From assembly GCF_021347895.1 (NCBI RefSeq), contig NC_067123.1, forward strand, positions 5,213,828 to 5,277,827: a stretch of DNA of 64,000 nucleotides, written 5' to 3'. The DNA comes from Acanthochromis polyacanthus (taxonomy: Eukaryota > Chordata > Actinopteri > Pomacentridae). Both the position numbers and the translations under genes were made by a program. The notes under the pieces were generated by a model, which ran no database searches, was not told where the DNA came from, and saw nothing but the letters and a program-made list of their open reading frames with translations. Shown here piece by piece: positions 24,585 through 63,115 of this stretch; position 1 is the stretch's first letter; each line of letters begins with the position of its first letter.

Positions 24585-27500
24585 TCAGCAGGTATCCTCC
24601 AGTTCCACATTTTCTGCACCTAAGACACAAAACAGGATCAGAGATGGAAAGAAACTCGGAAAACATCATTTTAGGCTTGATTTAATGTTTAGAAATCTGG
24701 TTTCACTCTGACATGAAAGGCTTGAGGAATCGGATAAGTTTATATCAGAGAACAGCAGGTTCTGATTAGAACGGGGTCAGAAATTTACGGACCTTCAGGA
24801 CCCTGACCAGATGGGTGGTACTGTTCAGTGACTGGACCTGCAGAGAACAAGCAGAACCAAGAAGACAGAAAGAACAAGCCTTCAGCACCTGATCTCAGAG
24901 AGCACACTGACAGCAGAACCAACAACAGAACCAACAGTAGAAGCAGAACCAACAACAACCAACGGTAGAAGCAGAACCAACAACAGAACCAATAGTAGAA
25001 GCAGAACCAACAACAACCAACGGTAGAAGCAGAACCAACAACAGAACCAATAGTAGAAGCAGAACCAACAACAGAACCAACAACAGAACCAATGGTAGAA
25101 GCAGAACCAACAACAACCAACGGTAGAAGCAGAACCAACAACAGAACCAACGGTAGAAGCAGAACCAACAGCAGAACCGACAATAAAATCAGAATCAAGT
25201 ACAAAACCAGAACCAACAACAGAACCAAAACTAACAAGTCTGGTTTCAGTCTGGTTTGTTAACTGGTTTGCTGACTAGATTCAGACCTGTTAAAACCAGT
25301 TTGTAGTCTGGAATCAGGTTTGTTTTAAACTGGTTTCTGATGTTTTCAGATTAAATTCAGCGAGTTTGTTGACTGGTTTCATACTGGTTTGCTGACTGGT
25401 TTCATGCTGGTTTGTTGACTGGTTTTATTCTGGTTTGTTGATTGGTTTCATACTGGTTTGTTGATTGTTTCATAATGGTTTGTTGACTGATTTCACAATA
25501 ATTTGTTGACTGGCTTCATACTGGTTTGCTGACTGGTTTCAAATTGGTTTGTTGACTTGTCTGTTGACTGGTTCCATACTGTTTTCATAATGGTTTGTTG
25601 ACTGGTTTCATACTGGTTTATTGACTGGTTTCATAATGGTTTGTTGACTGGTTTCATAATGGTTTGTTGACTGGCTTCATACTGGTTTGCTGACTGATTT
25701 CAGACTGGTTTCAAACTGGTTTGCTGACTGGTTTGTTGACTGATTTCAGACTGGTTTCAAAGTGGTTTGTTGACTAGTTTCAGATGGGTTTGTTGACTAG
25801 TTTGTTGACTGGTTTCATACTTATTTGTTTCTTGGTTTGCTGACTGGTTTGTTGACTGATTTCTGACTAGTTTCATACCAGTTTGTTGACTGGTTTCATA
25901 TTGATTTGTTGACCGGTTTTTTGACTGGTTTCATATTGGTTTGTTGACTGGTGTCAAACTAGTTTGTTGACTGGTTTCAGACTGATTTCATAATGGTTTG
26001 TAGACTGGTTTCATACTTATTTGTTTTCTGGTTTGTTGACTGGTTTCAGACTGATTTCATAATGGTTTGTAGACTGGTTTCATACTTATTTGTTTTCTGG
26101 TTTGTTGACTGGTTTCATACTGGTTTGTTGACTGGTGTCATACTGGTTTGGTGACTGGTTTTCTACCGCAAACATCTGTAAAACTTACCAGCCATCTGTG
26201 TGTGATCCGTCACAGCCGGATGACCTGTTAACAAACACACACAGTGTGCATTTAGACACACGTATTTCTGCAGCAGAAGAAGAAGTGACACCCATGAACG
26301 CTTCTTCTTCTTCTTCTACTGAGTAAATGAAAGCAACTTACTGGAGTCGAATGGTGTTCCTGTTGAATCTGCTGCAACTAAAACACACGCACAGTTTAAG
26401 GCACTTGACCTTCGACCTCTCACCTGGAGGCTGTGGCGGAGGGCAGGACTTACCTGTGTCTGTACCTATGGAGTCTGTCGCCATGGTAACAAGGTCTGTG
26501 TGGGAGTAAACACCTGAAACTGAATAAATAAAAACAGCAAGATGAGAGTCAGACAGGTGTGCAGGTAAATAGGTGTGTGTGTCAGAGAGGTGTGCAGATA
26601 AACAGGTGTGTGTGTCAGAGAGGTGTGTGTCATACAGGTGTACCTGGGTCCAGTGTGACTCCGCCCGCAGACTCTGTGTGAAGGATGACTGGCGATGACT
26701 CTGCAACACAGGATCATGTGACAGATAGAGATGTTAAACACACTCTTCGGGTTGGCAGATAGAGTTGCAGTTGTTATAGCAACGAGTCCTACCTGTGACA
26801 TCATGGCCGAGTCCGAGACCTGACGCTGGAACAACCAATCAGAACGCACGGTCAGCTTCACCACATATCAGTACAGTGATTGATTAATCTTAGGTACGTC
26901 TCACCTGTGAGGTCAATGTGAAGACTGGTCACTGACTCCGCCCCACCTGATGACATCATCATGGTGTGTTTATTTATATGGACTGAACACATTACATATT
27001 ACAGGACAATAACACTGAACTGATACTTGAGTCAGTCTGAAGTTTGTTTCTATGGAGATCCGATAATAACAGACACATAACACCAGCTCAGGTGTACCTG
27101 TGAGATCAGTGTGGAGGTTCTGAAGATCACTGAAGGACACCAGTCTATCCGTCACGGCTGCAGAAACAGAACCAGAAGTGATTTCAGCTGATCCACAGTT
27201 TAAGAATAATATTTTAAACATCTGCAGTTTAAAATGTTCTCGTGATGATTAAAGCTATTTTGAATGCTTTTTAATTAACCCAGAATTCCTAGCAGATTAG
27301 TCCTACTTAGGACAGTTAAGATAAATCTAGGCTTCACTGATTAGATCTAAGTACACGTCAAAGCCTGTGTTTGTGAGACCGGCTCCAGATGTTAAAAAAA
27401 TGTCTGATGTGAGAAATGTTTAATGTGCTCTGTTCTGGGTCTAAATGTGTTGCTGAAAGGGAATTGAAAAAGACGTGACAGTTTACCTCCATTTGTGTCC

Positions 27501-30500
27501 GTCAGCAGCGTCTGTCGGCCGTTTCCTAAACAACACAGTAGGAGCAATCCGAGATCAGAGAATAAAGAGCTCAGTGGTTGTTTTGTTCACAAGTACAATC
27601 CAACATTCAGAGTCTGCATTTATAAAAATCTAAACCAGATTTACCTCTAACGTCCATCAATGTCTCAGTGCTGCTCTGCTCCCAGAGCTCCAGCAACAAT
27701 TACTCTGAAGTCCTGGAAGCATGTCAGACCCATCTGTTCTGTGTCTTTTTGTGGTTGTTTTATGTCTCTTTGCAGCTCATTTGTGTCTCTTTGTAATAGT
27801 TTTGTGTCTTTTGTGGTTGTTTTGTGTCTCTTTGCAGTTGTTTTGTCTCTTTGTGGTTGTTTTGCCTCTGTGTTTTTTTGTGTCTCTGTGCGGTTGTTTT
27901 GTGTCTTGTGGTTGTTTTAGTCCTCTGAGATCATTCTGTGTATCCTTGGGATTGTTTTGTGTCTCTTTATGGTTGTTTTGTGTCTCTTTGTAGTTGTTTT
28001 TTCTCTTTGTGGATCTTTTGTGTCTCTTTGTGGTTCTTTTGTGTCTCTTTGTGGTTGTTTTGTGTGTCTTTGTGTCTCTTTGTGTTTGTTTTGTGTCTCT
28101 TTCTGGTCACCATGAAAATCCTCGACATGAAGATTTGGATCGTCCGGCTGCTGATTTATACTATACTTAGTAAAATATATTGTAAATGTAATAATAATAA
28201 TAATCTGGTTTTAGATATTATTCAGTTATTATAGTTATTGTTTACTCCTTATCCCAAATAACTAGAGAAAAAACTAAAATGCAAGCCCAACCGACACTCG
28301 CGTCTTAGGAGGCTATGGTGTTGGATCTCCATGGTGATATCATGTTTATAGAACAGGACTTCCAGGTTTGCGGTGTTGCAGGAGCTCTGGGAGCAGAGCA
28401 GCACTGCACAATGAGACACTCCAGTTTGGATGGAGATTTATTTGAAATCAGGTCCAGCTTTAGGTTTAAATAAACAGTCCTCATATACTGATTAAGAGAG
28501 AAAATCCAGATGTTACCGTGAGAATCAGGTGAGTCTACTCCATCTGTGACCACAAATACAGCATCAGTACAAAGAAATAAAAAATAATGTGTTTAATACA
28601 CACAGAGAGTCTGTAATTTCATAGATATTTGGTGAATTTATTTGCCAAATGTAGAATATAATTAAAACCCAGAATCTGTGAAGGGCAATAAAACTTACAT
28701 AAATGTTACATTTGTTTAAGAAAAAAGACTTAAAATATGCATTTATTGTAATTTAATGCAGTTTGTGTTGTTATGTAAATGTATAATTTATCATTATATT
28801 ATTCTATTGCATTAACACAAAACAATATTATTCATTAGCTAAATATTAAAAAGCTAAAAAGGGCACATGATCTTATGTAAAATTTAGGCCCAGTCGTATT
28901 TAATCATGACAAATTATTGTTTTTTTACAGTGTATGAAAGGTTTATCATGTGAATTGTTGATATTGTTGTTTGTTTATATTTTTTATCACTAAAAAAATT
29001 AAGAAATAAGTCCATAAGAAGATTTTCTGAGATTGCAATAATTCAATTAAAACCATTCTTTGGCACTTTGCACCTGTCTAGGTGAGCTCACCTGTCTGTT
29101 CTCTGTGAGCGCCGCTGTGTGATGATGATGATGATGAAGACGATGAGGATGAAGCAACTGATGAAGGATTAGTGAGTGAGACTGTAGGTAAACTTCAAAT
29201 TAAAAGGCTGTAAAACCCTTTCGTCTGCCTACCTGCAGAGTGGGAGGAGCCTAAGACAGAGCCGAGCACTGATTGGTCTGGTCCTGAGCTCACAGAGGAG
29301 CCGACGGATCCTGATTGGTCGATGCTGACGTCAGCATGATGAGCTGAAGCTTCAACAGCAGAAACAGAAGATTAAATTAGAAAACAGGGGCAACAGGTGA
29401 CACCTGAGGGGCGGAGCCTGTACCTGCAGGTGAAACCAGACTGTCCTGATCTGTAGACGGAGCTGCAGTCACTGAAACACAAACAGCAACCAGACGGATC
29501 AATGACACAGCCCATCAATAACATAGTCGAACAATAACACAGCTGATCAATAACAGATAATCAAGAAGAAGAGGAGTCCCACCTGTGGAGTCCAGGTGAG
29601 TGGGCTGAGTCATGTGACCTGTCAGAATAAAAGACAAACTGATGAAGCATGATGAAGCCAACTGATCCTGTATTGATCAGAAACAGACATGAGCTGAGAC
29701 CTGGAATGTTGATGTGAGCGTCTGAACCGAACGGATCTCCACCACCTGAAAAGAACAACAAGTAAACAACAACATATAAAGACAGACAGTGACCGAAAAC
29801 GCCACAGAGTGTAAAAAGTACCTTCGTTCATTAAACATATTGATATGAGACTGATGCATGTTAGTGCTGATGGAAATTTACCCATAAGGCCAAGCAAAAA
29901 GTCATGGCTGGATGGGTCGATGATTCCTGAAGAAGAAGAAGAAGATGAAAAAGGAGAAGAAACAAAAAGAATAAAAAGAGTAAAACCAGCAGATATCAAG
30001 GACTTTCTCTTTTCAGGCTGCTGAGCTTCAGAAGGATCAACAATCAGCAATAAAATCTGAAGAAGAATCAACACAGTAAAAAGAAGCGATAACACACCTC
30101 ACCTGGACACTCACCTGTATAATCCAGGTGAGAAACTCCGCCCACAAATGAACCCAAAACACCTGAAAGAAATAAAGAGAGACAAAAATGAACAGAACGT
30201 CTCCGTGGTTCTTTAGGGTGTTTCACCAAAAGTTTTTTTTTCAGTTTGGGTGTTCTCACCTCAAATCACATGACTAATACATGACCCCTGAGTTACCCCT
30301 CACCAGGTAGTTTAACCATCATTAACACCTTGAATCATCCCTCACCTGGTAGTTTTACCATTAATAAGATCCTGAATTATCCCTCACCTGGTAGTTTAAC
30401 CATTAATAAGATCCTGAATTATCCATCATCTGATAGTTTTACCATCATTACCACCTTGAATCATCCCTCACCTGGTAGTTTTACCATCATTAACACCTTG

Positions 30501-33500
30501 AATCATCCCTCACCTGGTAGTTTAACCATTAGTAAGATCCTGAATTATCCATCATCTGATAGTTTTACCATCATTACCACCTTGAATCATCCCTCACCTG
30601 GTAGTTTTACCATCATTAACACCTTGAATCATCCCTCACCTGGTAGTTTTACCATCATTAACACCTTGAATCATCCCTCACCTGGTAGTTTAACCATTAA
30701 TAAGATCCTGAATTATCCATCATCTGGTAGTTTTACCATCATTACCACCTTGAATCATCCCTCACCTGGTAGTTTTACCATCATTACCACCTTGAATCAT
30801 CCCTCACCTGGTAGTTTTACCATCATTACCACCTTGAATCATCCCTCACCTGGTAGTTTTACCATCATGAACACCTTGAATTATCCCTCACCTGGTAGTT
30901 TTACCATCATGAACACCTTGAATCATCCCTCAACTGGTAGTTTTGCCATCATGAACACCTTGAATTATCCCTCACCTGGTAGTTTTACCATCATGAACAC
31001 CTTGAATCATCCCTCAACTGGTAGTTTTGCCATCATGAACACCTTGAATTATCCCTCACCTGGTAGTTTTAACATCATTAACACCTTGAATCATCCCTCA
31101 CCTGGTAGTTTAACCATTAATAAGATCCTGAATTGTCCATCATCTGGTAGTTTAACCATCACTAACACCTCAAATCATCCCTCACCTGGTAGTTTAACCA
31201 TCAATAACAGCTCACCTGTGTGACTATCGGCTCCGCCCCCTCCTCCTCCTCCTCCTCCATTCAGGAGCTTCTGTCCGTTACCTGAACAAACAATAATCAA
31301 TAATCTATAGATTTTCTTGAATCAGCATATTTTTATGAAGGTTTTGATTGATCGATTGATTAATTTATGTTATGAAATACACTGTTTTTTTATTGATCAG
31401 CATGTATTGATTAAAGGTTTCACCGTTGGACTCTGAGTCAGCTCCATCCGCACCTGCAGACACAAACACACAATTCACACCATATCTATTAATTTATCAG
31501 TGATTCTGTTATTGATCGATTCCTCCGTTCTTCTGTCATCAGTCGTGTAGAATCACAAATGTTTGATGGATTTTAAAGTCAAAGCGAATCGATCGGTGAA
31601 CAGACAATCAGACTGATGATGGAAACAGCTGCTTCCTGATAAACATAGCGCTCATTTAATCTGACCAATCAGAGCTTCAGGCTGAGTGATGTCATGATTG
31701 AAGTGCTTTACCGTTTGTGTCTGTGTGAGGAGAAGCTGCAGGAAGTTCAGCTGCTGAAAACACAAAACATGTCTCACTGAAGAACATCTTGGACATCGTT
31801 AATAACATTTATTATTCACACTAACACTGTTACTGAGGGTTTACCTGCAGGCTGAGTCTGATCTGCTGAGACATCAGCTGCTGCAGAAGCTGCAGAACCT
31901 ACAGAACCTGAGGGGAAAACAGGAGGATATTCAGTGTTCTCTATACACAAAGTATCAAGAGCAAAGCAGAATACAGAAACACTGCAGCATTAAATAAGAA
32001 CAATTAACAGTTTTTATTTAGTGTTGAAGTAGATTCTAATAAATCAATCATGATCAGAAATCTGAGGATCAACACCAAAGGTCATTTCCTTCATTAGAAC
32101 TCAGTTAAAACCTACTTTCTAAAAACTTCAGTTGTTTTATTTTGGAGTTTATCATACTGGTGTAAACATGGACCTACTGATGGGCTGGAGTTTATCTGCT
32201 GAGCTGCTCGGATCTCCAGCAGCTGAAAAACAAACACAAGTTAAAACTCCTGATTTATTGTATGTGAGCATCAAACAGCACAGAAACACAAAAAACGGGT
32301 TCCACTAGTGGATCAACTGATCTGATCGGAACCTCCTCCTTCACTGTCCTTCACTTCAGAACCACCAGAGATCCATGACTATGAAGTAAACATAAACCCA
32401 AGTTCACTTTATAGAAGATCCAAAGATTTGCTGTGGAGACAGTTTCTCTTGCTCCTACTTTTAAAGATCGTTTAGGAACTTTGAACAGTTGATAAGTGAC
32501 AGTAAAGATGAAGGAGAACAGATGAGGAATGTGTGGTTCTTTAAATACTAGAACAAGAACATATAGTTCTTTAAATATTACAACAGGACAATGTAGTTCT
32601 TTAAATACTAGAACAGGAACATGTGGTTCTTCAAATACTGAACAGGACATGTGGTAATTTAAATACTACAACAGGACAATGTAGTTCTTTAAATACTAGA
32701 ACAAGAACATCCATCCATCCAACCATTCTCTATACACCGCTTTATCCTCACTAGGGTCGCGGGGGGTGCTGGAGTCTATCCCAGCTGACTCGTACGAAGG
32801 CAGGGGACACCCTGGACAGGTCGCCAGTCTGTTGCAGGGCTACATATACAGACACACAATCACACTCACATTCATACCTACGGGCAATTTAGAGTCATCA
32901 ATTAACCTCAGCATGTTTTTGGACTGTGGGAGGAAGCCGGAGTACTACAACAGCAACATGCGGTTCTTCTGAAAGTTAGTTTGTTCTCGTTACTGGGTCC
33001 AGCAGCTGGTTTACAGGTTGGACTGCTGCAGCGAGTTAATGAGATTATTTCTGAGGAGCTCATTGGGTGCAAACAGGACACAATATCTGGAGAACTTAAA
33101 ACTCCCTGCCGTGTTTGGGCTGTTTCAGAAGTATGAATAAATTACTACTGCTACAGCTCTGTAGGGATGTAAACCTGTGGATGATGGAGAATCTTCTTGG
33201 ACAGACAGAAACCATAAATTGGCGGTTGAGGTGGAGGTTTAGGATCAAAACCTGATTCATCTTCCTTTGATCACATGATTTAGGAAACAGGAAGTTACCT
33301 GCTGGGTCCACAGAGGAAGAATCACCTGCTGGACCTGAGAAACAGGAAGAACATTGATGCTGATGTTGGGTTTCTGTAGTTCTTCATATACAGTCTGTGG
33401 TTCTATATATTTAGTCTGTGATTCTTTATACAATCTGTGGTTCTATATACAGTCTGTGGTTCTATATATTTAGTCTTTGATTCTTTATACAATCTGTGGT

Positions 33501-36500
33501 TCTATATACAGTCTGTGGTTCTTTATATACAGTCTGTGGTTCTATATATACAGTCTGTGGTTCTTTAAATACAGCCTGTGGTTCTATATAAAGTCTGTGC
33601 TTCTTTATATACAGTCTGTGGTTCTATATACAATCTGTGGTTCTTTAAATACAGTCTGTGGTTCTATATACAGTCTGTGGTTCTTTAAATACAGTCTGTG
33701 GTTCTATATATACAGTCTGTGGTTCTATGTACAGTCTGTGGTTCTTTAAATACAGTCTGTGGTTCTAAAAAGAGTCTGTGCTTCTTTATATACAGTCTGT
33801 GGTTCTATATACAATCTGTGGTTCTTTAAATACAGTCTGTGGTTCTATATACAGTCTGTGGTTCTTTAAATACAGTCTGTGGTTCTATATAGAGTCTGTG
33901 CGTCTTTATATACAGTCTGTGGTTCTTTATTTACAGTCTGTGGTTCGATATATACAGTCTGTGGTTCTATGTACAGTCTGTGGTTCTTTAAATACAGTCT
34001 GTGGTTCTAAAAAGAGTCTGTGCTTCTTTATATACAGTCTGTGGTTCTATATACAGTCAGTGGTTCTTTATATACAGTCTGTGGTTCTTTATATACAGTC
34101 TGTGGTTCTATATACAGTCTGTGGTTCTTTATATACAGTCTGTGGTTCTATATACAGTCTGTGGTTCTCTATATACTGTATGTGGTTCTATATACAGTCT
34201 ATGGTCTCAATATACAGTCTGTGGTTCTATATACAGTTTGTGGTTCTATATACAGTCTGTGGTTCTTTATGTACAGTCTGTGGTTCTATATACAGTCTGT
34301 GGTTCTTTATATACAGTCTGTGGTTCTAAAAAGAGTCTGTGCTTCTTTATATACAGTCTGTGGTTCTATATACAGTCAGTGGTTCTTTATATACAGTCTG
34401 TGGTTCTTTATATACAGTCTGTGGTTCTTTATGTACAGTCTGTGGTTCTATATACAGTCTGTGGTTCTTTATATACAGTCTGTGGTTCTAAAAAGAGTCT
34501 GTGCTTCTTTATATACAGTCTGTGGTTCTATATACAGTCAGTGGTTCTTTATATACAGTCTGTGGTTCTTTATTTACAGTCTGTGGTTCGTTATATACAG
34601 TCTGTGGTTCTATGTACAGTCTGTGGTTCTTTAAATACAGTCTGTGGTTCTAAAAAGAGTCTGTGCTTCTTTATATACAGTCTGTGGTTCTATATACAGT
34701 CAGTGGTTCTTTATATACAGTCTGTGGTTCTATATACAGTCAGTGGTTCTTTATATACAGTCTGTGGTTCTTTATATACAGTCTGTGGTTCTATATACAG
34801 TCAGTGGTTCTTTATATACAGTCTGTGGTTCTTTATATACAGTCTGTGGTTCTATATACAGTCTGTGGTTCTTTATATACAGTCTGTGGTTCTATATACA
34901 GTCTGTGGTTCTCTATATACAGTATGTGGTTCTATATACAGTCTATGGTCTCAATATACAGTCTGTGGTTCTATATACAGTTTGTGGTTCTATATACAGT
35001 CTGTGGTTCTATATACAGTCTGTGGTTCTTTATGTACAGTCTGTGGTTCTATATACAGTCTGTGGTTCTTTATATACAGTCTGTGGTTCTATATACAGTT
35101 TGTGGATCTATATACAGTCTGTGGTTCTATATACAGTATGTGGCTCTATATACAGTTTGTGGTTCTATATACAGTCTGTGGTTCTAAAAAGAGTCTGTGC
35201 TTCTTTATATACAGTCTGTGGTTCTATATACAATCTGTGGTTCTTTAAATACAGTCTGTGGTTCTATATACAGTCTGTGGTTCTTTAAATACAGTCTGTG
35301 GTTCTATATAGAGTCTGTGCTTCTTTATATACAGTCTGTGGTTCTTTATACAGTCTGTGGTTCTCTATATACAGTCTGTGGTTCTTTATTTACAGTTTGT
35401 GGTTCGATATATACAGTCTGTGGTTCTATGTACAGTCTGTGGTTCTTTAAATACAGTCTGGGGTTCTAAAAAGAGTCTGTGCTTCTTTATATACAGTCTG
35501 TGGTTCTTTATACAGTCTGTGGTTCTCTATATACAGTCTGTGGTTCTTTATTTACAGTCTGTGGTTCGATATATACAGTCTGTGGTTCTATATACAGTCA
35601 GTGGTTCTTTATATACAGTCTGTGGTTCTTTATATACAGTCTGTGGTTCTATATACAGTCTGTGGTTCTCTATATACAGTATGTGGTTCTATATACAGTC
35701 TATGGTCTCGATATACAGTCTGTGGTTCTATATACAGTTTGTGGTTCTATATACAGTCTGTGGTTCTATATACAATCTGTGGTTCTTTGTGTACAGTCTG
35801 TGGTTCTATATACAGTCTGTGGTTCTTTATATACAGTCTGTGGTTCTATATACAGTTTGTGGATCGATATACAGTCTGTGGTTCTATATACAGTCTGTGG
35901 CTCTATATACAGTTTGTGGTTCTATATACAGTCTGTGGTTCTATATACAGTCTGTGGTTCTTTATATACAGTCTGTGGTTCTATATACAGTCTGTGGTTC
36001 TTTATACAATCTGTGGTTCTTTAAATACAGTCTGTGGTTCTATATACAGTCTGTGGTTCTTTAAATACAGTCTGTGGTTCTATATATACAGTCTGTGGTT
36101 CTATGTACAGTCTGTGGTTCTTTAAATACAGTCTGTGGTTCTAAAAAGAGTCTGTGCTTCTTTATATACAGTCTGTGGTTCTATATACAGTCTGTGGTTC
36201 TTTATATACAGTCTGTGGTTCTATATAGTCTGTGGTTCTTTATATACAGTCTGTGGTTCTATGTAGTCTGTGGTTCTTTATATACAGTCTGTAGTTCTAT
36301 ATAGTCTGTGGTTCCTTATATACAGTCTGTGGTTCTGTATACAGTCTGTGGTTCTTTATATACAGTCTGTGGTTCTATATACAGTCTGTGGTTCTTTATA
36401 TACAGTCTGTGGTTCTATATGCTGTCTGTGGTTCTTTATATACAGTCTGTGGTTCTCTATATACAGTATGTGGTTCTATATGCAGTCTGTGGTTCTTTAT

Positions 36501-39500
36501 ATACAGTCTGTGGTTCTCTATATACAGTATGTGGTTCTATATACAGTCTGTGGTTCTTTATTTACAGTCTGTGGTTCTTTATATACAGTCTGTGGTTCTA
36601 TATATACAGTCTGTGGTTCTATATGCAGTCTGTGGTTCTTTATATACAGTCTGTGGTTCTATATACAGTCTGTGGTTCTATATACAGTCTGTGGTTCTAT
36701 ATACAGTCTGTGGTTCATTATTTACAGTGTGTGGTTCTTTATATACAGTCTGTGGTTCTATATACAGTCTGTGGTTCTTTATATACAGTCTGTGGTTCTA
36801 TATACAGTCTGTGGTTCTTTATATACAGTCTGTGGTTCTATATACAGTCTGTGGTTCTATATGCAGTCTGTGGTTCTATATACAGTCTGTGGTTCTTTAT
36901 ACATTCTGTGGTTCTATATTTACAGTCTGTGGTTCTTTATATACAGTCTGTGGTTCTCTATATACAGTCTGTGGTTCTATATACAGTCTGTGGTTCTTTA
37001 TATACAGTATGTGGTTCTTTATACAGTCTGTGGTTCTATATAGTCTGTGGTTCTATATATACTGTCTATGGCTCTATATACAGTCTGTGGTTCTATATAG
37101 TCTGTGGTTCTTTATATACAGTCTGTGGTTCTCTATATACAGTATGTGGTTCTATATGCAGTCTGTGGTTCTTTATATACAGTCTGTGGTTCTCTATATA
37201 CAGTATGTGGTTCTATATACAGTCTGTGGTTCTTTATTTACAGTCTGTGGTTCTATATGCAGTCTGTGGTTCTTTATATACAGTCTGTGGTTCTATATAT
37301 ACAGTATGTGGTTCTATATACAGTCTGTGGTTCATTATTTACAGTCTGTGGTTCTTTATATACGGTCTGTGGTTCTATATACAGTCTGTGGTTCTTTATA
37401 TACAGTCTGTGGTTCTTTATATACAGTCTGTGGTTCTATATACAGTCTGTGGTTCTATATGCAGTCTGTGGTTCTTTATATACAGTATGTGGTTCTATAT
37501 ACAGTCTGTGGTTCTATATACAGTCTGTGGTTCTATATGCAGTCTGTGGTTCTTTATATAGTCTGTGGTTCTCTATATACAGTATCTGGTTCTATATGCA
37601 GTCCGTGGTTCTATATATACAGTCTGTGGTTCTTTATACAGTCTGTGGTTCTATATTTACAGTCTGTGGTTCTTTATATACAGTCTGTGGTTCTCTATAT
37701 ACAGTCTGTGGTTCTCTATACATTCTGTGGTTCTTTATATACAGTATGTGGTTCTTTATACAGTCTGTGGTTCTATATAGTCTGTGGTTCTATATATACT
37801 GTCTATGGCTCTATATACAGTCTGTGGTTCTATATAGTCTGTGGTTCTTTATATACAGTCTGTGGTTCTATATACAGTCTGTGGTTCTTTATATACAGTC
37901 TGTGGTTCTCTATATACAGCATGTGGTTCTATATGCAGTCTGTGCTTCTATATATACAGTCTGTGGTTCTATATACAGTCTGTGGTTCTTTATATACAGT
38001 CTGTGGTTCTATATAGTCTGTGGTTCTTTATATACAGTCTGTGGTTCTATATACAGTCTGTGGTTCTTTATATACAGTCTGTGGTTCTTTATATACAGTC
38101 TGTGGTTCTATATATACAGTATGTGGTTCTTTATACAGTCTGTGGTTCTATATAGTCTGTGGTTCTATATATACTGTCTATGGCTCTATATACAGTCTGT
38201 GGTTCTATATAGTCTGTGGTTCTTTATATACAGTCTGTGGTTCTATATAGTCTGTGGTTCTTTATATACAGTCTGTGGTTCTATATACAGTCTGTGGTTC
38301 TTTATATACAGTCTGTGGTTCTCTATATACAGTATGTGGTTCTATATGCAGTCTGTGGTTCTTTATATACAGTCTGTGGTTCTATATAGTCTGTGGATCT
38401 TTATATACAGTCTGTGGTTCTATATACAGTCTGTGGTTCTTTATATACAGTCTGTGGTTCTCTATATACAGTATGTGGTTCAATATGCAGTCTGTGCTTC
38501 TATATATACAGTCTGTGGTTCTATATACAGTCTGTGGTTCTTTATATACAGTCTGTGGTTCTATATATACAGTCTGTGGTTCTTTATATACAGTATGTGG
38601 TTCTTTATACAGTCTGTGGTTCTATATAGTCTGTGGTTCTATATATACTGTCTATGGCTCTATATACAGTCTGTGGTTCTATATAGTCTGTGGTTCTTTA
38701 TATACAGTCTGTGGTTCTATATAGTCTGTGGTTCTATATATACAGTCTGTGGTTCTATATACAGTCTGTGGTTCTATATATACAGTCTGTGGTTCTCTAT
38801 ATACAGTATGTGGTTCTATATGCAGTCTGTGCTTCTATATATACAGTCTGTGGTTCTGTATACAGTCTGTGGTTCTTTATATCCAGTCTGTGGTTCTTTA
38901 TATACAGTCTGTGGTTCTATATATACAGTCTGTGGATCTATATACAGTCTGTGGTTCTATATATACAGTCTGTGGATCTCTATACAGTCTGTGGTTCTAT
39001 ATATACAGTACGTGGTTCTTTATACAGTCTGTGGTTCTATATATACAGTCTGTGGTTCTGTATACAGTCTGTGGTTCTTTATATCCAGTCTGTGGTTCTT
39101 TATATACAGTCTGTGGTTCTATATATACAGTCTGTGGATCTATATACAGTCTGTGGTTCTATATATACAGTCTGTGGCTCTATATACAGTCTGTGGTTCT
39201 ATATAGTCTGTGGTTATCTATATACAGTCTGTGGTTCTTTATATACAGTCTGTGGCTCTATATACAGTCTGTGGTTCTTTATATACAGTCTGTGGTTCTA
39301 TATACAGTCTGTGGTTCTTTATATACAGTCTGTGGTTCTATATACAGTCTGTGGTTCTTTATATACAGTCTGTGGTTCTATTCACTTTTACCTCCAGCTG
39401 TTCCATCGTGGGTTCCTCCTCCTGCTGCTGACTGACCACCAGAAGCTGAAACACATTTTATCTGATTATAGATTCACATTTAAACATCTGAAAATACACA

Positions 39501-42500
39501 CTTAGTCTGAATTATTTTCAAATTTAATTCACTTCCTGTCCTCCGAGATGCTACAAGTCTGCTGATTGATAAAATAACCAAAGCAGCCGAACTAAAACAC
39601 AAAACAACCCAAAGATAAAAACAACCACAAGAATATATCAAATCACCACAAAGAGACACAAAACAACCACAAAAAGACATCAAGCACACAAAATTAAATG
39701 CAAGAAACCATGACGAGACACGACACAACCACAATAAGTCATTAAAAAAACACAAGAAGACACACAATGATGTAAAACGTCTACAAACTAAACTAAAATC
39801 TACTTTTTGTTATTGTGAATTTTGTTATTAATATATTGGAGGATGGAGTTAGAAAATGATTCTCTGCTTGAAGAGCTTCTGTTCTGAGCTGTGAAGAGAT
39901 GTGACTGATTTCATAGATCATAAAACAAACTATTGACATCTATTCTTTTGTTCTGTAGCCTCTTCTTCTTCTTCTTCTTCTGCTTCTTCGTCTTCTTATT
40001 CTTATTCTGTTTCTTCTTCTTCTTTGTCTTCTTCTGTTGCTCCTTCTTCTTCTTCTTCTGCTTTCTCTTCTGCTGCTTCTTCATCTTCTTTGCTGCCCCT
40101 TGGACTCATCTGTTGTTGCCGGACTCTTCTGCTGGTGGGAGTTTTTGTTCCTTCTCACCTGAGTTTTGTTAAATCTGTCTACACGTGACAATACTGACCT
40201 AAACATATTCTAAATACAAGAACCAGGAAACAAACCAGGAGAGCCAGATGTTGATTCCAGTATGCAGGATACAAAGAAAAATTAGCAAATGTCCCACAAA
40301 ACAAACACGGAAAATGTAAAATGACCAAAATGAGACACAAAACTGTCAAAAAAGAAGTAAAACAACATAAATGTGAGGCCAAATCACTATAAATATTCTC
40401 TATATGATTAAATTAAAAGCCATCAATTGCAAAAAGACATAAAGCAATCAAAATGTGATCATAAAAATTGGGCTCTTGTGGTGTTTAAGTCTTAACTTGT
40501 GTATCAATGTCAGTTTTGTTTTAGTTCACCTGTTATTGTGGCTTTTTGCTGCTACTTAAATTAAGTTTTTTTTGTTCATCTGACCCGATTTAAACCTTAA
40601 AGATGCTTCAAAATACAAAAAAAAAAAAAAACAGACAAAAATGTCCAGCAGGTAAAGACTGAAACATAAACAGACGAACAGTGTTTGTTTTGGGTCTCTT
40701 TCTGCAGGTGGGGCTGTGGCTCTAACTTCACCATCTGCAGCATCACCTGTTACCGGGCAGAACCTCCAGGATGTGGCACAAACCTAGTCAGGTTAATCCT
40801 GGTCTGAAAAGCAGCCGGTTAATCTGGATCAAAGTGGAACAAACCAACTGTTGAGGAGGTAAAACCCGATAGGGTGGACTCACCTGAACCTCCGGCTGCC
40901 GTGGTGGTCTGCTGGCTGCCGAGAACACCTGAGGAGGAAGATCAGGTGTTCAGCATGAATACGGCCTCTGTTCATCAGCTGAAGGAACTCAGAGATTATT
41001 GAGACATGAAGGATCAGTGACAGAAACTGAGTCATTCACAAATAACTGAGTCTCACATTTTAATAAAAGCTGCTTTAGTCTTCTGATAACAAGTGAAGAG
41101 AATTTCAAACACTGAGCTTCGTTCAGTCTGACTCGTGTTTGAATGTTTAGTTCAGGTGTTTATGCAGGTTTATGTGGTAAAGTTAAAGTGTGCTTTAGCT
41201 TCTCACCCTCAATCTTATCCTGACTCTTGGAGTCATCATCATCTGAAAGAAAAGACATCCAACATTTATTCCCCTAATTAAAGAAGTTTAACAGCATTTT
41301 ATTCACTTCCTGTCTGTTTGGTCTTTCAGGGGCGTTTATGATCCAACACATCGTTGCTTTTTGCAGTTGTGTTTCCTTGATGCTCTGAATCTCTCAACAA
41401 GATACGACTGTCGATGTCTTAGCAGAACTTAGAGGGTTAGTTACAAACTACCAGTTTAGCTTTCATATATTTAAATTCAGGCTCCATCTTTCATTAGATT
41501 CTTTGGTTCTTTTAGTCCTTCGTATGTGCATCTTTTTTTCTGATGACAAACTCCATCCTCAGCATGGAGGAAACCAGAGTCCACTAGTTTCTCCTGCTGG
41601 ATGGGTTGTGTTGCTCTACCTTTCTCTAGAAAACACCACAAAAAGGTTCTGTTTGACTTTGGATAAAATTTCAACTTCTTTTGGACAAATTTAGTCATTT
41701 TGGACAAATTTAGAGTCATTTTGGATAGAATTTTGAGTAAGTTTTGAACAAATTTTGGATACATTCTGAGTCATTTTCAAATTATTTTGGACAAATTTGG
41801 AGTTTCAGGTCATTTTTAAAAAGATTTCTGTTTTTTTGGACAAATTTCAAATAATATAGGTCATTTAAGATAAGATTTTCGACAAATCTTAAGTGAATTT
41901 CGACCACTTTTAACTAGTTTTGGGAAATCTTGAGTGGTTCTGGTCGGATCTTGAATCAGTTTGAGCAAATATTTACTCTATGTACAATGCTTTAGTCGTT
42001 TTGTATGATTTTTAATGCGTGTTGAAGTAATATTGAGACATTCTGGATGAATTTTGAGTAGTTAATAACAAATTTCAGCAAGTTCCAACTGATTAGACTT
42101 CAAGTGATTTAGACAAATTCTGAGCAGATCTTGATGGTTTGGAGTCATTTTGGACTAATTTCGACTCATTTTACGTCATTAAGTTATTTGGGTTACATTT
42201 TGAGTCATTATGGAAAAATTTCAAGTTATTTTGGACAAATTTTAAGTTTCAAGTTATTTGAGAAAAGATTACAGTCCATTTTGAATAAATTTCAAATAAT
42301 ATGGGTCATTTAGGATAAGATTGTAGACAAATCTTAAGTAATTTTGGACCATCTTTAACTAGTTTTGGAAAATCTTGGGTGGTTTTGGACGGACCTCGAG
42401 TCATTCTGGGCAAATATTTCCTAAATATACAGAGTTTGAGTTGTTTTCGATGATTTTTAAAAAAGAATATGCAGAATATATCCCCTTTGCACCCCACAAG

Positions 42501-46641: not shown

Positions 46642-46866
46642 CTGACTGAGGGAGGAGCTACTGCAAAAATACTACAAATAATCATATTTATACTGACCGA
46701 GGGAGGAGAAATTACAAAAAATACTACAAATAATCATATTTATACTGACTGAGGGAGGAGCTACTGCAAAGATCTTATATTCATATTTATACTGACTGAG
46801 GGAGGAGCTACTCCAAGAAATACTACAAATAATTATACTTATACTGACTGAGGGAGGAGCTACTGG
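46641..46866 (-). repeat. Tandem repeat of promoter units
   Basis: Four full units (about 47-52 bases) and a partial fifth start at 46641, 46692, 46744, 46791 and 46843. Each begins ACTGAC on the plus strand. Adjacent ends join to give AGTATAAATATG on the minus strand, so extra TATA-like sites lie upstream of the used one. Confidence 0.88.
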
Positions 46867-49300: not shown

Positions 49301-49309
49301 CTCCTCACT

Positions 49310-51612: not shown

Positions 51613-51629
51613 GTTTATACTTGTATAGT

Positions 51630-52785: not shown

Positions 52786-52789
52786 AACA

Positions 52790-54816: not shown

Positions 54817-54829
54817 AACTCTTAAGTGA

Positions 54830-55720: not shown

Positions 55721-55727
55721 TTCAAAC

Positions 55728-55733
55728 TTTATT
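55728..55733 (-). promoter_or_regulatory. Poly(A) signal of the acidic gene
   Basis: The minus strand reads AATAAA about 290 bases after the inferred stop at 56022. Confidence 0.65.
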
Positions 55734-56021: not shown

Positions 56022-59000
56022 TCATGGCAACAGTATTCCACTGTGGAGGTGTGGCTCTGTGGAAACAGGAAAATGATGTAAATCATGTTTACATGCTTCT
56101 GTTGTCAATAGTAAGAGTCATCATTTATGTGTAACAAATTAGTATTTAAATTCAGATTAAGTCATGTAAAATGAAAAATACATAAAAAAATACTTAAATG
56201 GAATATTTAAATTAATCAGGTAAAATTATATAATAAATGAAATTGTAACAATAACATGTAAAATAGTCAGGAAAATTTACAGAATCCGTTCATAATATTG
56301 TCTTTACCTGAATATTTAAATAATCAGCTTAATGTACAGAACTAATAATATTGTTTCAGGCCTTACTTGATTATGTAATAAATCAGGTTAATTTACATAA
56401 TTAATAACATTGTTTAAAACTCAGTAAAATGTACATATTAAATTATATTGTAGACTTGTCATGTACATTATTTGAATTATTAAGATACATTTATATAATA
56501 AATAACATTGCAGGGTGTCAACTTTAATATTTAAATTAGTATGGTATATTTACATATTAACAAATATTTAAATCAACTGGATACGTTTACATAATAAATA
56601 ATATTCTAGGGTCTTAACTGTAACATTTAAATTAATCAGATAAATCACATAATAAGTTACACTGAAAAAGCTAAACTTTAACACTTTGCTCAGGAAAGTT
56701 TACATAATCCACTCATAATATTGTTTTACCTGAATATTTAAATTCAGGTAAATTTATGTAATAATTAATCAGGTTAGTTTACAGAATTAATAACATTATT
56801 TTAAATCCAGTAAAAAGTATAATATTTGAGTTATTTAAATACATTTGTATAATAAATAATATTGCAGAGTGCTAACTTTAATATTTAAATGGTAAGGCAT
56901 ATTTATATAATAACTCATATTTAAATTGGAAAGGTACATTTACTTAAGATTAGTATTGAAATTATTCCAATAAATGAACATAAATAACATGGTAGTTTCT
57001 GAACCATGATATATAAAATGGTTAACTGATAAAACTGTGGTGTTACACTCTGGCTCTGTGTCTGTTGTTTTAGAAGTTCTGCGTAATTAATAACTATATT
57101 AAATAAAGTGTGATTAGTGTTAGGTGATACCTGAAGTCTTCGAGCTTCCACAGTTCAGACGATCAGCATCTAATTTGAAGCTACAAGAAGAAAAACGATT
57201 TAAACAGAGTCCGAAATCATCAGTAAACAGCTGGAAACACTGTCTCTGTCTGTCAGAGCTTCAATGTGATTGGCTGTGAAACTTGATTGGCTGTGAAACG
57301 TGACTGGATGTGAAATGTGATTGGCTGTTGAACTTTACCCTGTGTGGTGTCATCAAGCTGGTCTGGTTTGTCAGACGCCGTCGCTGCAACAGAAAACAAA
57401 CCATAAATGTGAAATTCTCTGTCGGAGATTTTGTGACTGTTGAGCTGTAAATAAATTAAGTAAATTAATCTCACATGTGAACGTTCAGATTATTGGGTTT
57501 TTATCATTTCTCTGACCGATCACTTTTAAATTATTCATCTGGACCATTAATCTTTCAGCTTGAAGTCTTGTTTATGCCAACCTCCAGAGAACCTTTTCAG
57601 TTCTTGTCTTTGCCATTCCTTGAATGTCTCTTTGCGATTGTTTTGAGTCTCTTTGTGGTTGTTTTATGTCTCTGAGACTGTTTTGTATCTCATTGTGTTT
57701 GTTTTATGTCTCATTGTGATTGTTTTGTCTCTTTGTGGTTGTTTTGTGTCTTGTGATTGTTTTGGGTCTTGTTTAGGCTGTTTTGTATCTATTTGCGGTT
57801 GTTTGGTTTCTCTTTGTGGTTGTTTTGTGTCTCATTCAAGTTGTTTTGAGTCTCTTTGTGATTGCTTTGTGTCTCGTTTAGGTTGTTTTGTATCTCTTTG
57901 TGGTTGCTTTCTATCTCTTTGCGGTTGTTTAGTTTCTCTTTGAGGCTGTTTTGTGTCTCTTTGTGGTTGTTTTGTGTCTCTTTGAGGTTGCTTTTCTATA
58001 CACATTGATCTGTGTTGTGTTCTGTCAGTCATCAGTTTAATAAATCAGCAGTTTACCTTCAGTGGAGTCTTCAGGGTTTGGAACCATCACCACCTCCTCT
58101 AGCTCCTTGTCCTCCTCCTCTGTGTCCTCGTCCTCGTCTGGCTCCTTGTTCTCGTCCGACTCCTTTTCCTCCTCCTCCTCCTCTGACTCCTTCTCCTCCT
58201 TCTCATCCTCCTGTTTTTCTTCCTCCTCTTCTGCTTCATTCTCCTCCTCTGAGACGGACTCGGAAGTGTCACTGATCTCATCACTGACATTCTCAATACT
58301 CTCACCTCCTTCAGTTTGACTTTCATCGTCATCAGCTGTGATTTCAACCTCTACGTTATCTTCTGTGGCCTGCTCTGAGCTCTTCTCATCTTTATTGCCT
58401 CCTTTATCTCCTTCCTTATTTTCGTCACTCTTCACATCCTTGTCTGACTCCTCAGCCTCCTCTCCATCCTGAACCTGACTTGCATCTTCGCTTGCCTCTA
58501 CATCAACTATCACCCCCTCCTCTGACTCCTCCCCCTGCTGCCGTTCCTGCTCCTCTGTATCATCCTCTACCTCAGCCCCTTCGACACTCTCCACTCTGTC
58601 ATTCTCATCGCTATTAATGCTGTCGACTCTTTCTTCTGTACTGTCATCTCTGTTGTTTTTGGCATCACCGTCAGGACCGTCATCAGGACCATCATCGGTG
58701 CCGTCATCAGGACCATCATCGGTGCCGTCATCAGGACCATCATCGGTGCCGTCATCAGGACCATCATCGGTGCCGTCATCAGGGCTATCATGATCAGCGC
58801 CATCGGTGACGTCATCAGTGTCTTTGCCTTCATTGATCTCCACATCATCAGAGCTGTTGTCTTTGCTGTTGTCGGTTGCTTCGTCCTCATCAGCTTTGCT
58901 GCTGCTGTCATTGTCTTTGGCATCTTTTTCTTCATCGGTCTCTTTCGTGTCTGTGGATTAAAGATGTTGCATCATTAATCCATTTGTTGCGATTCTGAAT

Positions 59001-62000
59001 GCAAATACAGGAGCAGAAGTTCAGACTCATTTAAGGATTTCACTTTGTAGGACATAACTGAAGACCTAAAAAATGTGAAAACATATTCATGAATTTATGT
59101 GGTGAACAAAAAGGAGAAACACGTCCAACACTTTCAACACCTCCAACATCTCCAACACCTTCAACATCTTTGACACTCTTGACATCTTCAACACTTCTGA
59201 TATCTCTGACACCTTTGACATCTGCAACACCTTCAACACTTTCGACACCTTCAACATCTTCAACACCTCCAAAACTTCCAACGTGTCGGGCACACCCAAC
59301 ACCCCCGACACCTACAACATCTCCAACACCTTCAACACCTTCAGCACATTGAACATCATCAACACCTCTGACATCTTCAACACCTCCAACCTTTCCAACA
59401 TGTCCGAAATGCCCGAAACCCCGACACCTCCAACAACTCCAACACCTTCAACACCTCCGACACCTTTGACACCTCCAGCACCTCCAACAATGTCAATACC
59501 TAATCACCTTCGGCATCTCTGACACTTCTGACATCTCTGACACCTTCAACACCTTCGACATCTCTGACACTTCTGACATCTCTCACACCTTCGACATCTG
59601 CGACATCTCCAGTACCTTCAACACCTTTAACAGCTCCAACACCTCCGACATCGTTGATATCCCCGACACTTCGGACATCTCTGACACCTCCAACACCGTC
59701 AGTACCTCAGACACCTTCAGCATCTCTGACACTTCTGATTTCTTTGACACCTTCACCTTTCCTGTCTTTTTCTCCTCATTTTGTGGTTGTTTTGTGTGTT
59801 TTGTTCTTGTTTTAGCTTGATTCTCTCACATTTTCTCACTCCATAATCACATTTGTGTAACTTCAGTGTCTCCAGTTTGTTCTACACAGTAAAATTAAAG
59901 GAGAACCCTTGAATGAGATGGTCTGTGTGAGTTATCGGGGTTCCTCTGTTCTCGCCTGGTTCTTCTCATTGTGTCAGCTGGATGAACATTCAGTGTATTT
60001 ACCAATGTCATTGGCCTTCTCTGTAGACTCTCCGTTATCTTGAACTGCAGACACAAAACATCAGAACAACGTTTTAACAACACTGAATGAATGCAGCAGA
60101 TCCGTCAGTGTGAATTAAACAAATATTAGTCAGACAGATTAGCAGCATCTGTGGAGACAAACGTGTGTCAAGATGGAGGTTAATCAACCAGTCAATAATT
60201 AAATATCACTATTGTACTGCTGCATCACTGACTTCATGTCAGATTGACAAAACAATAACAGAAATGCACATATTACACCAAGAGACCCCAAAAAGAGACA
60301 AAGACACAGAAAAAACAGAAAGAGACACAAAAGAAAAAGAGACATAAAAAACACAAATAGATGTTGGTTCAATGCAAACACAGAAAATAAACAATTTTTA
60401 AATGAAAAAATGGACTGCTAGATACAGAATGACTGAAAAGAGATGCAAAAGAACCACAAACAGATGCAAACTAACACTACATAACTACAGCATTATTGAC
60501 ACAAGATGCGAAATGAAATCAAATACAAGTAAAAGTGATCCACAATGACCACAATGACACAAAATTACTCAAAGTAAATAGAAAAGCACAAACAAATAAA
60601 CACAAATAGAGGAAGATTTAGTGCAAACATTAAAACATACAAACCAATAAAACAGAGGTGGAGAATAAACATAAAAAAATGCAAAACTTCCAGTCAAGAC
60701 ACGCAAAATGTCTAGAAGGGAATAAAAGTGACTCTCACAAACAGGAGACACAACAACACTCGAAAACAAACACAGACACGACAAACTAACTGGTGTCAAA
60801 GAAGTCGTTGGTGTTTCTGGATCCGTGAAAAACACCAAAACCACAGATGTGAAACCTTTATCTCACCTTCAAGGCTGCTGATGTCGGTGCTGTCTACGTT
60901 GAGGTCCTCTGAACCAGCATTTTAAAAAAGGACAGGATTTGGAATTAAACAACGCAAAAATAGAACATAAAACACAGACATAGAATTAGAATGAAGTAAA
61001 ACACTGAGCAGCCGTGGAAACACTGCCTGCAGTTCAACTGAAAGCTTTTCACTGTCATGGAGAATCATTTGTAACGAAGAGGGGAAAGGATTTTTTAAAA
61101 TAAAACGTAGAATAAAATAAATTTGAATAAGCATGATGATTTGACTTTGACTTCACCACAGAACTGGAAATCATCCGTGACACGTTCATGAACATCTGAA
61201 AACCGAAAATCTGATGATTCTTTCTGTTTAACTTATCGGTCCCCTGTTCCCTTGTCTGAAAAAAATCCAAAAATTCAGCAAAAAAAAATTCACAAATTTA
61301 TAAAACAAATTTGCAAAATCTTCAAGAAGAAAATTTCAAAAATTCCTTGAAAATTTCCCTTAAAAATTTTATTTAGAAAAATTAAATAAAATTGTAAATA
61401 TTTTCAAAAAAAATGAATAAAAATCTTTCAAACAAAATCCTAAAAATATCCCAAGTGATTACATATATATCAAGAAAAATTATAATATTTTCTTGAAGAA
61501 CATTTGGAAAAAAATCAACCAAAATCCAGCCAAATTCGCTGGATTTTGGTTGATTTTTTTCTGAATGTTCTTAAAGAAACGTTTTTTTAAAATAATTTCT
61601 TTTTTCCACCCAAAAATGTTAAAAACATTCCCAAAAATGTTGAAAATGTGAAAATTTTCACTGTGAAATTAATTTTTTTCCCACATTTTCAAACTTTAAA
61701 ACGGGTCAATTTGACCAGCTGAATGATACGAGGGTTAAATGATTTCCAGCTGATAATTTGATTCAGATTCACAGATGTTTTAAAAGATAACATGCCTTCT
61801 AAAAATGCACACTTGGTCTGGACTTCAAAGTTAATAAAACATCCAGATGTGACAGCTGAAGGTTTTAATGTATTTCTGGTTGCTATATTCACTGCTGTTT
61901 GATTTACAGCCAGTGTGTTGTGATGCCAGCAGAAACATTTCCCAAACAACAAACCGGTTTCCAGTTAGAAGATGTGTCTATTTGTGGTAATTTTATTTCT

Positions 62001-63115
62001 GTCATTGCTCTTTTTGTGAGTCTCGCTGGTCATTTTGTGTATCAGTAATCACCTATGGCAGCACATTCAGAAACTACAAAGACTGACACAAATAAAACGT
62101 TGATCTCACCCCCAGCACTGCTGCTGTCTGCATCTGAGGTCTCTGAAGCAGCTTTAAAAAATAACAAAGTTTAGAATTAAACTATTTACAGAAAGCAAGT
62201 CATAGTATCACTAATCAGGGCTGCAGTTATAAAATAAGACATTCTACTAATTAGGGCTGCATTGGCTTTCCTCTCAGACCAAGGCTTTCTATCTTCTGAC
62301 TTTTTCACTGAAGATATTTTTAAATGTAAATATGTGTGAGTTCTCAGCAGTCGTTGTTTTTAACTCCTGTATTTAGTGACTTATCTCGTTCTGCTGTGGG
62401 ACAACAGAAACATCTGTCAGTGAGAACAGCTTTGTTGTAGTTCAGCTGTATTAAAATGCAGTTTAATGAGCACAGAGAGCAGGAGAGAAGCTAACAGATG
62501 GAAACATGAAAACACTGTACCCCATTCGGTCCTGGTTTACCGGTTTTAATAACCATCTCTGAATGTCTCACAGTGTTACAAGTTCAACATTATTTCAGTT
62601 TACTAATGAACTGAAATAAGCTTCAATAAAACACAAACCTGGTGATTCAGTTGAACCATCTGTAGGAGCTGAAACACACACCAGTAAACGCATAGGTAAA
62701 CACACAAGTAAACACATAGGTCTGTTAATTGTTATTAGAACAAAATATGACATAAAAGTATAAAAATTTGATCTCACCTTCGCTGTTGCTGCTGTCACTG
62801 TCGTCTGACGAAGCTGTAAAAAAGACAGAATTTAAAATTAAACTGTCAAAAATAAAACACAGAAGCAGCAGGATAACATTCATCAAACAAAGTTTAAAGT
62901 GGAAAATAATTTCTATGTGAAAATATCAGATCTATACTGACTTGATGCTGCAGTAGAATCTGGGACAGCTGCAACACAAACACACAGGTAAACACACACA
63001 CAGGTAAACACACATACAGGTAAACACACAGATCGTTATTAGAACAGAACACAACATTAAAGATATAAAAACTTGATCTCACCTTCACTGTTGCTGCTGT
63101 CACTGTCGTCTGAAG
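56022..63115 (-). CDS. Second phase-1 micro-exon gene, Asp/Glu/Ser-rich (5' part outside the window)
   Basis: I do not recognise this gene. Exons, 5' to 3': 63115-63083, 62968-62942, 62813-62778, 62668-62639, 62151-62110, 60908-60867, 60044-60003, 58950-58057, 57383-57339, 57169-57131 and 56056-56022. All internal exons are multiples of 3 with phase 1 at both ends, as in the neighbouring gene at 24585-46576. They add up to 1267 coding bases, about 422 residues. The small exons encode Ser/Asp-rich pieces (SDDSDSSNSE twice). The 894-base exon encodes about 298 residues dominated by Asp, Glu, Ser and Lys, with four DDGTDDGP repeats and long Glu runs near its end. The terminal exon adds about 11 residues (PHLHSGILLP) and a stop. 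Strongly acidic secreted proteins of this kind bind calcium in mineralised tissue or otoliths; that is analogy only. The start and any signal peptide lie beyond 64000. Confidence 0.68.
56100..57125. other. AT-rich intron of the acidic gene
   Basis: Imperfect ATATTTAAATTAATCAGGTAAATTTACATAATAAATAA-like segments recur (for example near 56280, 56700 and 56880), so it is a degenerate long-period repeat. No exon is seen. Confidence 0.5.
57610..57990. repeat. Minisatellite with TTTGTGGTTGTTTTGTGTCTC units
   Basis: The same unit as the array at 27735-28105, here in the intron before the 45-base exon of the acidic gene. Confidence 0.92.
58677..58772 (-). repeat. Four perfect 24-base coding repeats
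   Basis: Four head-to-tail copies inside the 894-base exon each encode eight residues of the type DDGTDDGP. The near identity of the copies points to recent expansion. Confidence 0.93.
59100..59765. repeat. CAACACCTTCGACATCTC-type minisatellite
   Basis: Short units built of ACACCT, ACATCT and CAACACC run over 650 bases in the intron before the large acidic exon. The threonine/serine/proline frames here are artefacts. Confidence 0.9.
60240..60780. repeat. Degenerate A-rich array (AGAGACACAAAA units)
   Basis: A loose purine-rich repeat related in reverse complement to the GTGTCTCTTTGTGG minisatellite. Confidence 0.55.
61228..61738. mobile_element. TTAA-flanked MITE, copy 2
   Basis: Same orientation and same internal order as the copy at 22969-23469: TTCAGCAAAAAAA, then TTCCCTTAAAAATTTT, then AAACGGGTCAATTTGACC. 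TTAA is present at 61228-61231 and 61735-61738. The left end is more decayed. Confidence 0.75.
62700..63115 (-). repeat. Tandem duplication of an exon with its flanking intron
   Basis: The exons at 62813-62778 and 63115-63083 encode nearly the same peptide (SDDSDSSNSE). The downstream introns also match (GTTATTAGAACA, then TATAAAAA and TTGATCTCAC). One unit of about 300 bases was duplicated. Confidence 0.85.

Follow-up and report, generated by a model that had tools for sequence, protein, structure and literature searches.

What are the two neighbouring minus-strand genes, cut into chains of very short exons, that lie in a 64,000-nt stretch of the Acanthochromis polyacanthus genome (contig NC_067123.1, positions 5,213,828 to 5,277,827; hereafter the window)? 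An initial annotation had described them as a tandem pair of unrecognised, disordered, secreted proteins. We found that they belong to a related tandem array of four genes (genes 1-4), recognizable by gene structure, a common first exon and acidic products, with gene 1 as a conserved member. We lean towards reading this array as a non-SCPP cluster, characterized by phase-1 introns, of acidic secreted proteins for the inner-ear matrix (otolith type). Coordinates refer to the window unless marked extended, in which case the numbering continues past its right end; all features of genes 1-4 lie on the minus strand.

Phase-1 exon chains and a common first exon

Combining a minus-strand reading with splice-site scoring, we modelled gene 1 (46576-24585) as 31 exons encoding 488 amino acids, or as 30 exons without a putative exon 8. 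Intron 1 is in phase 2, the remaining 29 introns are in phase 1, and the internal exons measure 21-117 nt. The gene 2 model comprises 15 exons, 9 inside the window and 6 past its right end, with the 5' end outside the window; here too the first intron is phase 2, 13 of the 14 introns are phase 1, and the internal exons after exon 2 span 15-894 nt. The multiple-of-three micro-exons of the initial annotation were thus recovered over a wider size range than the 27-66 bases it gave, and its rule that codons are split after the first base holds for all introns except the first in both models. The split codon was also said to begin usually with G. This is correct for gene 1 (27 of 29 phase-1 junctions) and is no peculiarity of the locus, because G is the consensus last base of an exon.

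We compared chains of open, symmetric phase-1 exons of at most 150 nt with 100 dinucleotide shuffles per stretch, using splice weights taken from the consensus. Minus-strand chains scored 116.3 (24500-33400), 32.7 (39380-44100) and 61.4 (57100-68200, partly extended), far above the shuffle maxima of the same three stretches (24.3, 18.5 and 25.4), and plus-strand chains scored 0.6, 9.7 and 21.5. Chains in phase 0 (70.0, 29.7 and 52.4) and phase 2 (58.5, 15.2 and 29.9) also exceeded their own shuffle maxima, since all phases draw on one set of splice sites; in every tested stretch the highest score belonged to phase 1.

Gene 1 is complete, as first proposed, with a TATA box at 46634-46643 (AGTATAAAGG), an 11-nt exon 1 that ends in phase 2 (46566-46576; ATGCTGCCACC, MLPP), a signal-peptide exon 2 that enters in phase 2 and leaves in phase 1 (43983-44047; ..MIVLLAASASTAPVE), and a poly(A) signal, AATAAA, at 24338-24343. 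Gene 2 likewise has a signal exon, so that both products are predicted to be secreted. A start codon directly 5' of this exon was rejected by eye on account of an in-frame stop; exon 1 of gene 2 (ATGCTGCGACG, then GTGAGT) was found about 2 kb upstream through its resemblance to exon 1 of gene 1, which it equals at 15 of 17 bases.

Beyond gene 2 lie two further copies, genes 3 and 4, and the 11-nt first exon is common to all four; the paralogy of the supposed pair was therefore upheld and its number raised to four. From the four genes we derived a 17-base pattern, ATGCTGSSACSGTGAGT. It occurs 4 times in the 957-Mb, 81-contig assembly, always at genes 1-4, and never when read backwards; we estimate that chance alone would give about one match. 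Scanning both strands of the 224 kb that start at the left end of the window, we found ATG-led 17-mers with at most 3 mismatches from that of gene 1 only at the first exons of genes 1-4, and four other 17-mers at 4 mismatches.

This exon structure bears on the family to which the genes might be assigned. The SCPP family includes disordered acidic members and forms tandem clusters. Genes 2-4 might accordingly be SCPP genes of the DSPP type, as their acidic composition, the Asp-Ser repeats of gene 4 and the counting of Starmaker among SCPPs in print (PMC4260845) would suggest. SCPP introns, however, are described as virtually all phase 0 (PMC6732285), whereas the gene 1 and gene 2 models start with a phase-2 intron, continue in phase 1 and contain no phase-0 intron at all. 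What they have in common with SCPP genes is symmetric exons that can be skipped without loss of frame (PMC6732285). From the difference in phase, also pointed out in the initial annotation, we conclude that genes 1 and 2 are not SCPP genes and reject that membership; an SCPP identity of genes 2-4 appears very improbable.

Conservation and exon turnover in gene 1

Judged by its sequence, gene 1 is an orthologue in the teleost si:ch211-80h18.1 family, which is known to databases yet uncharacterised. This assignment follows from the match between our splice model and the annotated A. polyacanthus protein P0001 (LOC110958971; 98% identity, 100% coverage), which differs by lacking the 21-nt exon 8 and one Ala, the latter at a CAGCAG tandem acceptor of exon 11 (31712-31753), and by Arg in place of one His. 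The other 30 exons, with exon 11 shortened by three bases, make 481 codons, that is, 480 amino acids and a stop. Exon 8 (33175-33195) has a weak donor, is missing from P0001 and P0002, and is probably not real. Isoforms P0002 and P0003 start from another first exon at 47282-47340 (MSRDECSDSEMTKRQVRSH.., with H in the annotated isoforms where the window has Q); exon 4 is skipped in P0002, and exons 20 and 21 are skipped in P0003. The initial annotation had staked its case on these exons belonging to no annotated family. For gene 1 they do, and "unrecognised" stands as a statement about function only; the proteome search it proposed led to this family for gene 1 and to no relative for gene 2.

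With gene 1 as query, 7988 candidates were scored and 135 of them reached E <= 0.001; the best 120 of the 135 were analysed. All named entries among these are fishes by genus name, and three are nameless. Full-length orthology and matching N- and C-terminal motifs link gene 1 to the family, whose orthologues range from conger to percomorphs with both ends in common. Their database names are discordant (apomucin, mucin-19, dentin sialophosphoprotein, collagen alpha-2(I), PE-PGRS, homeotic protein ocelliless, putative lysozyme-like, type 3 secretion system secretin), probably through automatic naming by low-complexity similarity.

To describe conservation exon by exon, we aligned 40 proteins, one per species, chosen from the best 120 of the 135 matches. 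An exon was called occupied where letters fill at least 70% of its columns, a measure that for other species describes the alignment and not gene structure. Three exons are occupied in 39/39 other proteins: the terminal exon 31 (24585-24619; AENVELEDTC*, mean identity 97%), exon 30 (24793-24837; PVTEQYHPSGQGPEG, 81%), which holds a possible SGxG glycosaminoglycan site, and exon 3 (43604-43675; 80%), which encodes the acidic block ..GELSEEEE... Exon 4 (41207-41242; DDDSKSQDKIE) and exon 15 (29882-29926; core SSHDFLLGLMG) are each occupied in 37/39, at mean identities of 83% and 78%. Occupancy falls to 16 of 39 for exon 7 (33299-33334), 18 for exon 11 and 22 for exon 9 (32178-32222), and exon 18 (29424-29471) is occupied in 27/39 and in one of the eight non-percomorphs.

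Isoforms point the same way. In 25 hand-picked same-species pairs, mostly predicted database entries and not observed transcripts, 19 are free of mismatches and differ by shifts of one residue, by slightly displaced splice sites or by whole cassettes, and 6 have 1 to 14 mismatches. At exon 14 (30115-30162) an alternative donor 12 nt further on would add GECP, and the matching sequence TGEC[PQ] is present in 10 of the best 120 of 135 entries. As far as alignments can tell, the frame-safe gain and loss expected of symmetric exons holds for the middle portion of the protein, with both ends fixed. A design for rapid change thus suits the middle exons and not the N-terminal acidic block or the last ten residues, which are among the most conserved parts.

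The C-terminus reads LEDTC, LEDSC or AEDTC in 104 of the best 120 of 135 entries. In 79 entries selected for complete ends (EDTC or EDSC), SGQG occurs within the last 30 residues in 75, and in 62 the terminal Cys is the only one beyond the signal region. Exons 30 and 31 also remain open in a second frame beyond the VELEDTC stop (24837-24491), ending ..KMWNWRIPADFHIKPRVRFLRYRFQCTDQSAWPRKPDASH*. This second C-terminus closes 9 of the best 120 of 135 entries (from live-bearers, Fundulus, Scatophagus, Channa and Takifugu), and the last exon is possibly dual-coding.

Consistent with the absence of any recognizable domain, Pfam returned no family at E <= 1, whether for P0001, for two distant orthologues or for residues 1-187 of the gene 2 model. 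An AlphaFold prediction from a 39-sequence alignment gave gene 1 a mean predicted local distance difference test (pLDDT) score of 48.7, with 325 of 480 residues below 50 and the signal peptide as the sole helix, and the whole mature protein lies on the disordered side of a charge-hydropathy plot. The protein is therefore predicted to be disordered, as proposed at the outset. It is acidic and rich in Ser, Thr and Gly, with 1.1% Lys after the signal region.

Elastin has phase-1 symmetric exons, VPG-type hydrophobic repeats and Lys-mediated cross-links, and the small symmetric phase-1 exons and Gly-rich composition of gene 1 could be taken to indicate an elastin-like family of elastic matrix proteins. 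The likeness ends with the exons, however: gene 1 shows no VPG by eye, has no Pfam match, and is acidic and poor in Lys. As neither VPG-type repeats nor Lys cross-link domains were found in gene 1, we rejected membership in the elastin family, a reading that we regard as scarcely credible.

The remaining exons of the splice model are exons 5 (40884-40928), 6 (39392-39445), 10 (31845-31907), 12 (31424-31453), 13 (31216-31281; NGQKLLNGGGG..), 16 (29701-29745), 17 (29583-29618), 19 (29233-29349; 117 nt), 20 (29092-29157; a Ser run), 21 (28517-28543), 22 (27487-27525; NGRQTLLTDTNG), 23 (27098-27157), 24 (26905-26946), 25 (26793-26825), 26 (26644-26700), 27 (26454-26519), 28 (26342-26377) and 29 (26189-26224). 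In one gene 1 intron, a 21-bp unit repeated about 300 times takes up most of the length as a 6-kb array (33373-39379), whose stop-free plus-strand frames of up to 701 amino acids are a repeat artefact, and another intron carries a 42-bp minisatellite of about 22 copies (30297-31209).

The acidic genes 2-4

The modelled chain of gene 2 stays open from its TATA box (AGTATAAA; 70398-70388, extended, outside the window) to its own poly(A) signal (55728-55733). Exons 1-3 lie at 70262-70252, 68143-68085 and 67842-67828, and exons 4-6 at 65093-65067, 64984-64928 and 64861-64835 (all extended). They are followed within the window by exons 7 (63083-63115), 8 (62778-62813), 9 (62639-62668), 10 (62110-62151), 11 (60867-60908) and 12 (60003-60044), the large Asp/Glu exon 13 of 894 nt (58057-58950), which together with the poly(A) signal had been recognized from the start, exon 14 (57339-57383) and the terminal exon 15 (57170-57180; ASN*). 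The encoded protein of 433 residues contains 20.3% D, 19.4% E and 12.9% S, no C and no Y, and a single Met after the signal region.

Within gene 2, a pair of micro-exons has been duplicated together with its introns; the copied stretches agree at 156/170 and 84/92 aligned bases, with 18 and 4 gaps, the latter stretch being the one in which exon 8 copies exon 7. The duplicate of exon 6 (62942-62968) has a weakened donor and is of uncertain use, and was excluded from the model. To judge from this sequence similarity, the duplicated pair represents an exon addition caught in progress.

Genes 2-4 also have a signal exon in common, of which the assembly holds 3 copies, all within the array; with gene 1 they have in common only exon 1 and the design of the signal exon. 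Their large acidic exons are of three types: Asp/Glu in gene 2, mostly Glu in gene 3 (711 nt) and Asp-Ser repeats in gene 4. The mature gene 3 protein is 66.7% E over 297 residues, and gene 4, which has a TATA box at 105369-105357 (AATATAAA; extended, outside the window), encodes 31.9% D and 26.6% S over 395 residues. The C-terminal sequence ..VELEDTC of gene 1 does not recur, as the gene 2 model ends in ASN* and that of gene 4 in VDGRL*; for gene 3, modelling located no end. Possible micro-exons of gene 3 recur in the surroundings of the large exon (GSGDSSSSPK and YGVLEPTDVPGDF, two copies each; extended 81663-80545 and 85919-84964), and their recurrence suggests that exon turnover may still continue there.

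To the left, the array is flanked by bop1 (BOP1NT) and hsf1 (HSF_DNA-bind at 15186-15371, with an overlapping open frame). Between these two, at 8321-9349 on the plus strand, two adjoining reverse-transcriptase-like frames separated by a stop look by eye like a retrotransposon fragment. To the right lie a cct3-like frame (Cpn60_TCP1, below the Pfam cut-off), an nmrk2-like frame named by eye and without a Pfam match, and a glmp-like gene (NCU-G1).

A candidate inner-ear matrix cluster and its known counterparts

In zebrafish, si:ch211-80h18.1 marks SC0, a cluster of supporting cells in the adult inner ear (PMC9540346); a literature search on the exact gene name turned up single mentions and no function in print. 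Under the inner-ear reading, repeated duplication of one phase-1 micro-exon gene would have produced the four-gene array. Gene 1 would be its conserved member, and supporting cells would release its product into the inner-ear extracellular matrix, either the otolith or the otolithic membrane. In this protein the conserved stretch of acidic residues (..LSEEEEDDDD..) would carry phosphate and bind calcium or mineral, the Gly/Ser/Thr-rich middle would act as a spacer whose length is set by inclusion or skipping of whole exons, and the conserved C-terminus (SGQG..VELEDTC) would anchor the protein through a glycosaminoglycan site and the cysteine. Genes 2-4 would be fast-changing polyanions of the Starmaker (Stm), Starmaker-like (Stm-l) and OMM-64 kind, steering the growth of calcium carbonate. 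We infer phosphorylation and glycosaminoglycan addition from motifs, and likewise infer function, matrix role, mineral binding and kinship with Starmaker.

A number of observations weigh against this reading. Of genes 1-4, printed ear expression was found only for the zebrafish orthologue of gene 1, and that orthologue is not restricted to the ear, since it is listed in a gene table of the injured zebrafish brain alongside mgp, loxl2b and col5a2a (PMC5752677). In 17 of the 79 selected entries the terminal Cys is joined by one or two more beyond the signal region, and without its first 45 mature residues the gene 1 protein falls just on the folded side of the charge-hydropathy plot, close to the bop1 control. 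Gene 1 might instead be a general extracellular-matrix or mucin-like protein (of cartilage, meninges or skin mucus) with no special link to otoliths, and genes 2-4 functionally unrelated to it. The brain table, the Ser/Thr/Gly-rich composition and the mucin and collagen names in the annotation agree with such a role, which is opposed by the supporting-cell expression of the orthologue and by the first exon common to gene 1 and the acidic genes. We consider this alternative unlikely, if a serious one.

Further adverse points concern the acidic genes themselves. When the database was queried with the gene 2 protein, none of 7990 scored candidates proved related at E <= 0.001, and with residues 1-140 none of 861 did so at E <= 10; both searches covered gene 2 only. 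The TATA sequence of gene 3 is lost and its large exon is nearly pure Glu. Gene 4 has few exons and a degenerate-looking frame end with an odd basic tail; its signal exon is 88% identical to those of genes 2 and 3, where the adjoining introns reach 87-98%, so that this exon, about as divergent as its surroundings or more so, gives no sign of constraint. Given the lost TATA sequence and the degenerate frame end, genes 3 and 4 may be pseudogenes. Genes 2-4 as a whole could then be decaying duplicates, simple-repeat expansions that are open by chance and not working genes. Against such decay stand the signal exons of genes 2 and 3, identical at 59/59 bases between flanks that are 93% and 87% identical (gaps excluded) and interrupted by gaps, and the modelled open chain of gene 2 from TATA box to poly(A) signal; we judge it improbable for the three genes together.

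We return to the inner-ear reading and to the proteins that it invokes. The Asp-Ser repeats of gene 4 resemble those of Starmaker, and zebrafish Starmaker begins ML.R with an APV-type signal end, which provides a lead and not a test. Like Starmaker, Starmaker-like and OMM-64, genes 2-4 are predicted to encode secreted, extremely acidic proteins of disorder-type composition, with a charge-hydropathy analysis for gene 2 only. Medaka Stm-l contains 16.9% D, 20.4% E and 15.2% S, with no C and no Y (PMC4260845), close to gene 2 in composition, the property compared here; it differs in having 11 Met against the 1 of gene 2 after the signal region. Neither a limited literature search nor the gene 2 database search turned up the array of four genes, the first exon common to them or the three types of acidic exon. 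We found no literature pairing hsf1 with starmaker and, among the papers listed, recognised none on a starmaker gene cluster or on starmaker intron phases. The main text of an otolith paleoproteome contains no uncharacterised, mucin or DSPP entry for the six terms checked (PMC9992438), and a croaker genome paper mentions starmaker once, in its reference list (PMC8515026).

As a tentative proposal, which we hold somewhat less likely to be right than wrong, bony fishes would possess a second, SCPP-independent family of mineral-matrix proteins, with si:ch211-80h18.1 as conserved founder and Starmaker, Starmaker-like and OMM-64 as its fast tandem offspring. Its hallmarks, put forward with the same reserve, would be a first exon of 11 nt, a signal exon entered in phase 2 and left in phase 1, and micro-exons in phase 1. 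The short exon and the intron phase offer a way of tracing acidic genes that have drifted by structure instead of sequence; a sparsely described zebrafish supporting-cell marker gains a testable role, and a family misnamed apomucin, PE-PGRS or type 3 secretion system secretin is corrected. Otolith proteins of different fishes act alike, but Stm and Stm-l are described as having no obvious similarity to each other (PMC4260845); a second family of this kind, if real, would explain how the two can do so without similarity in sequence.

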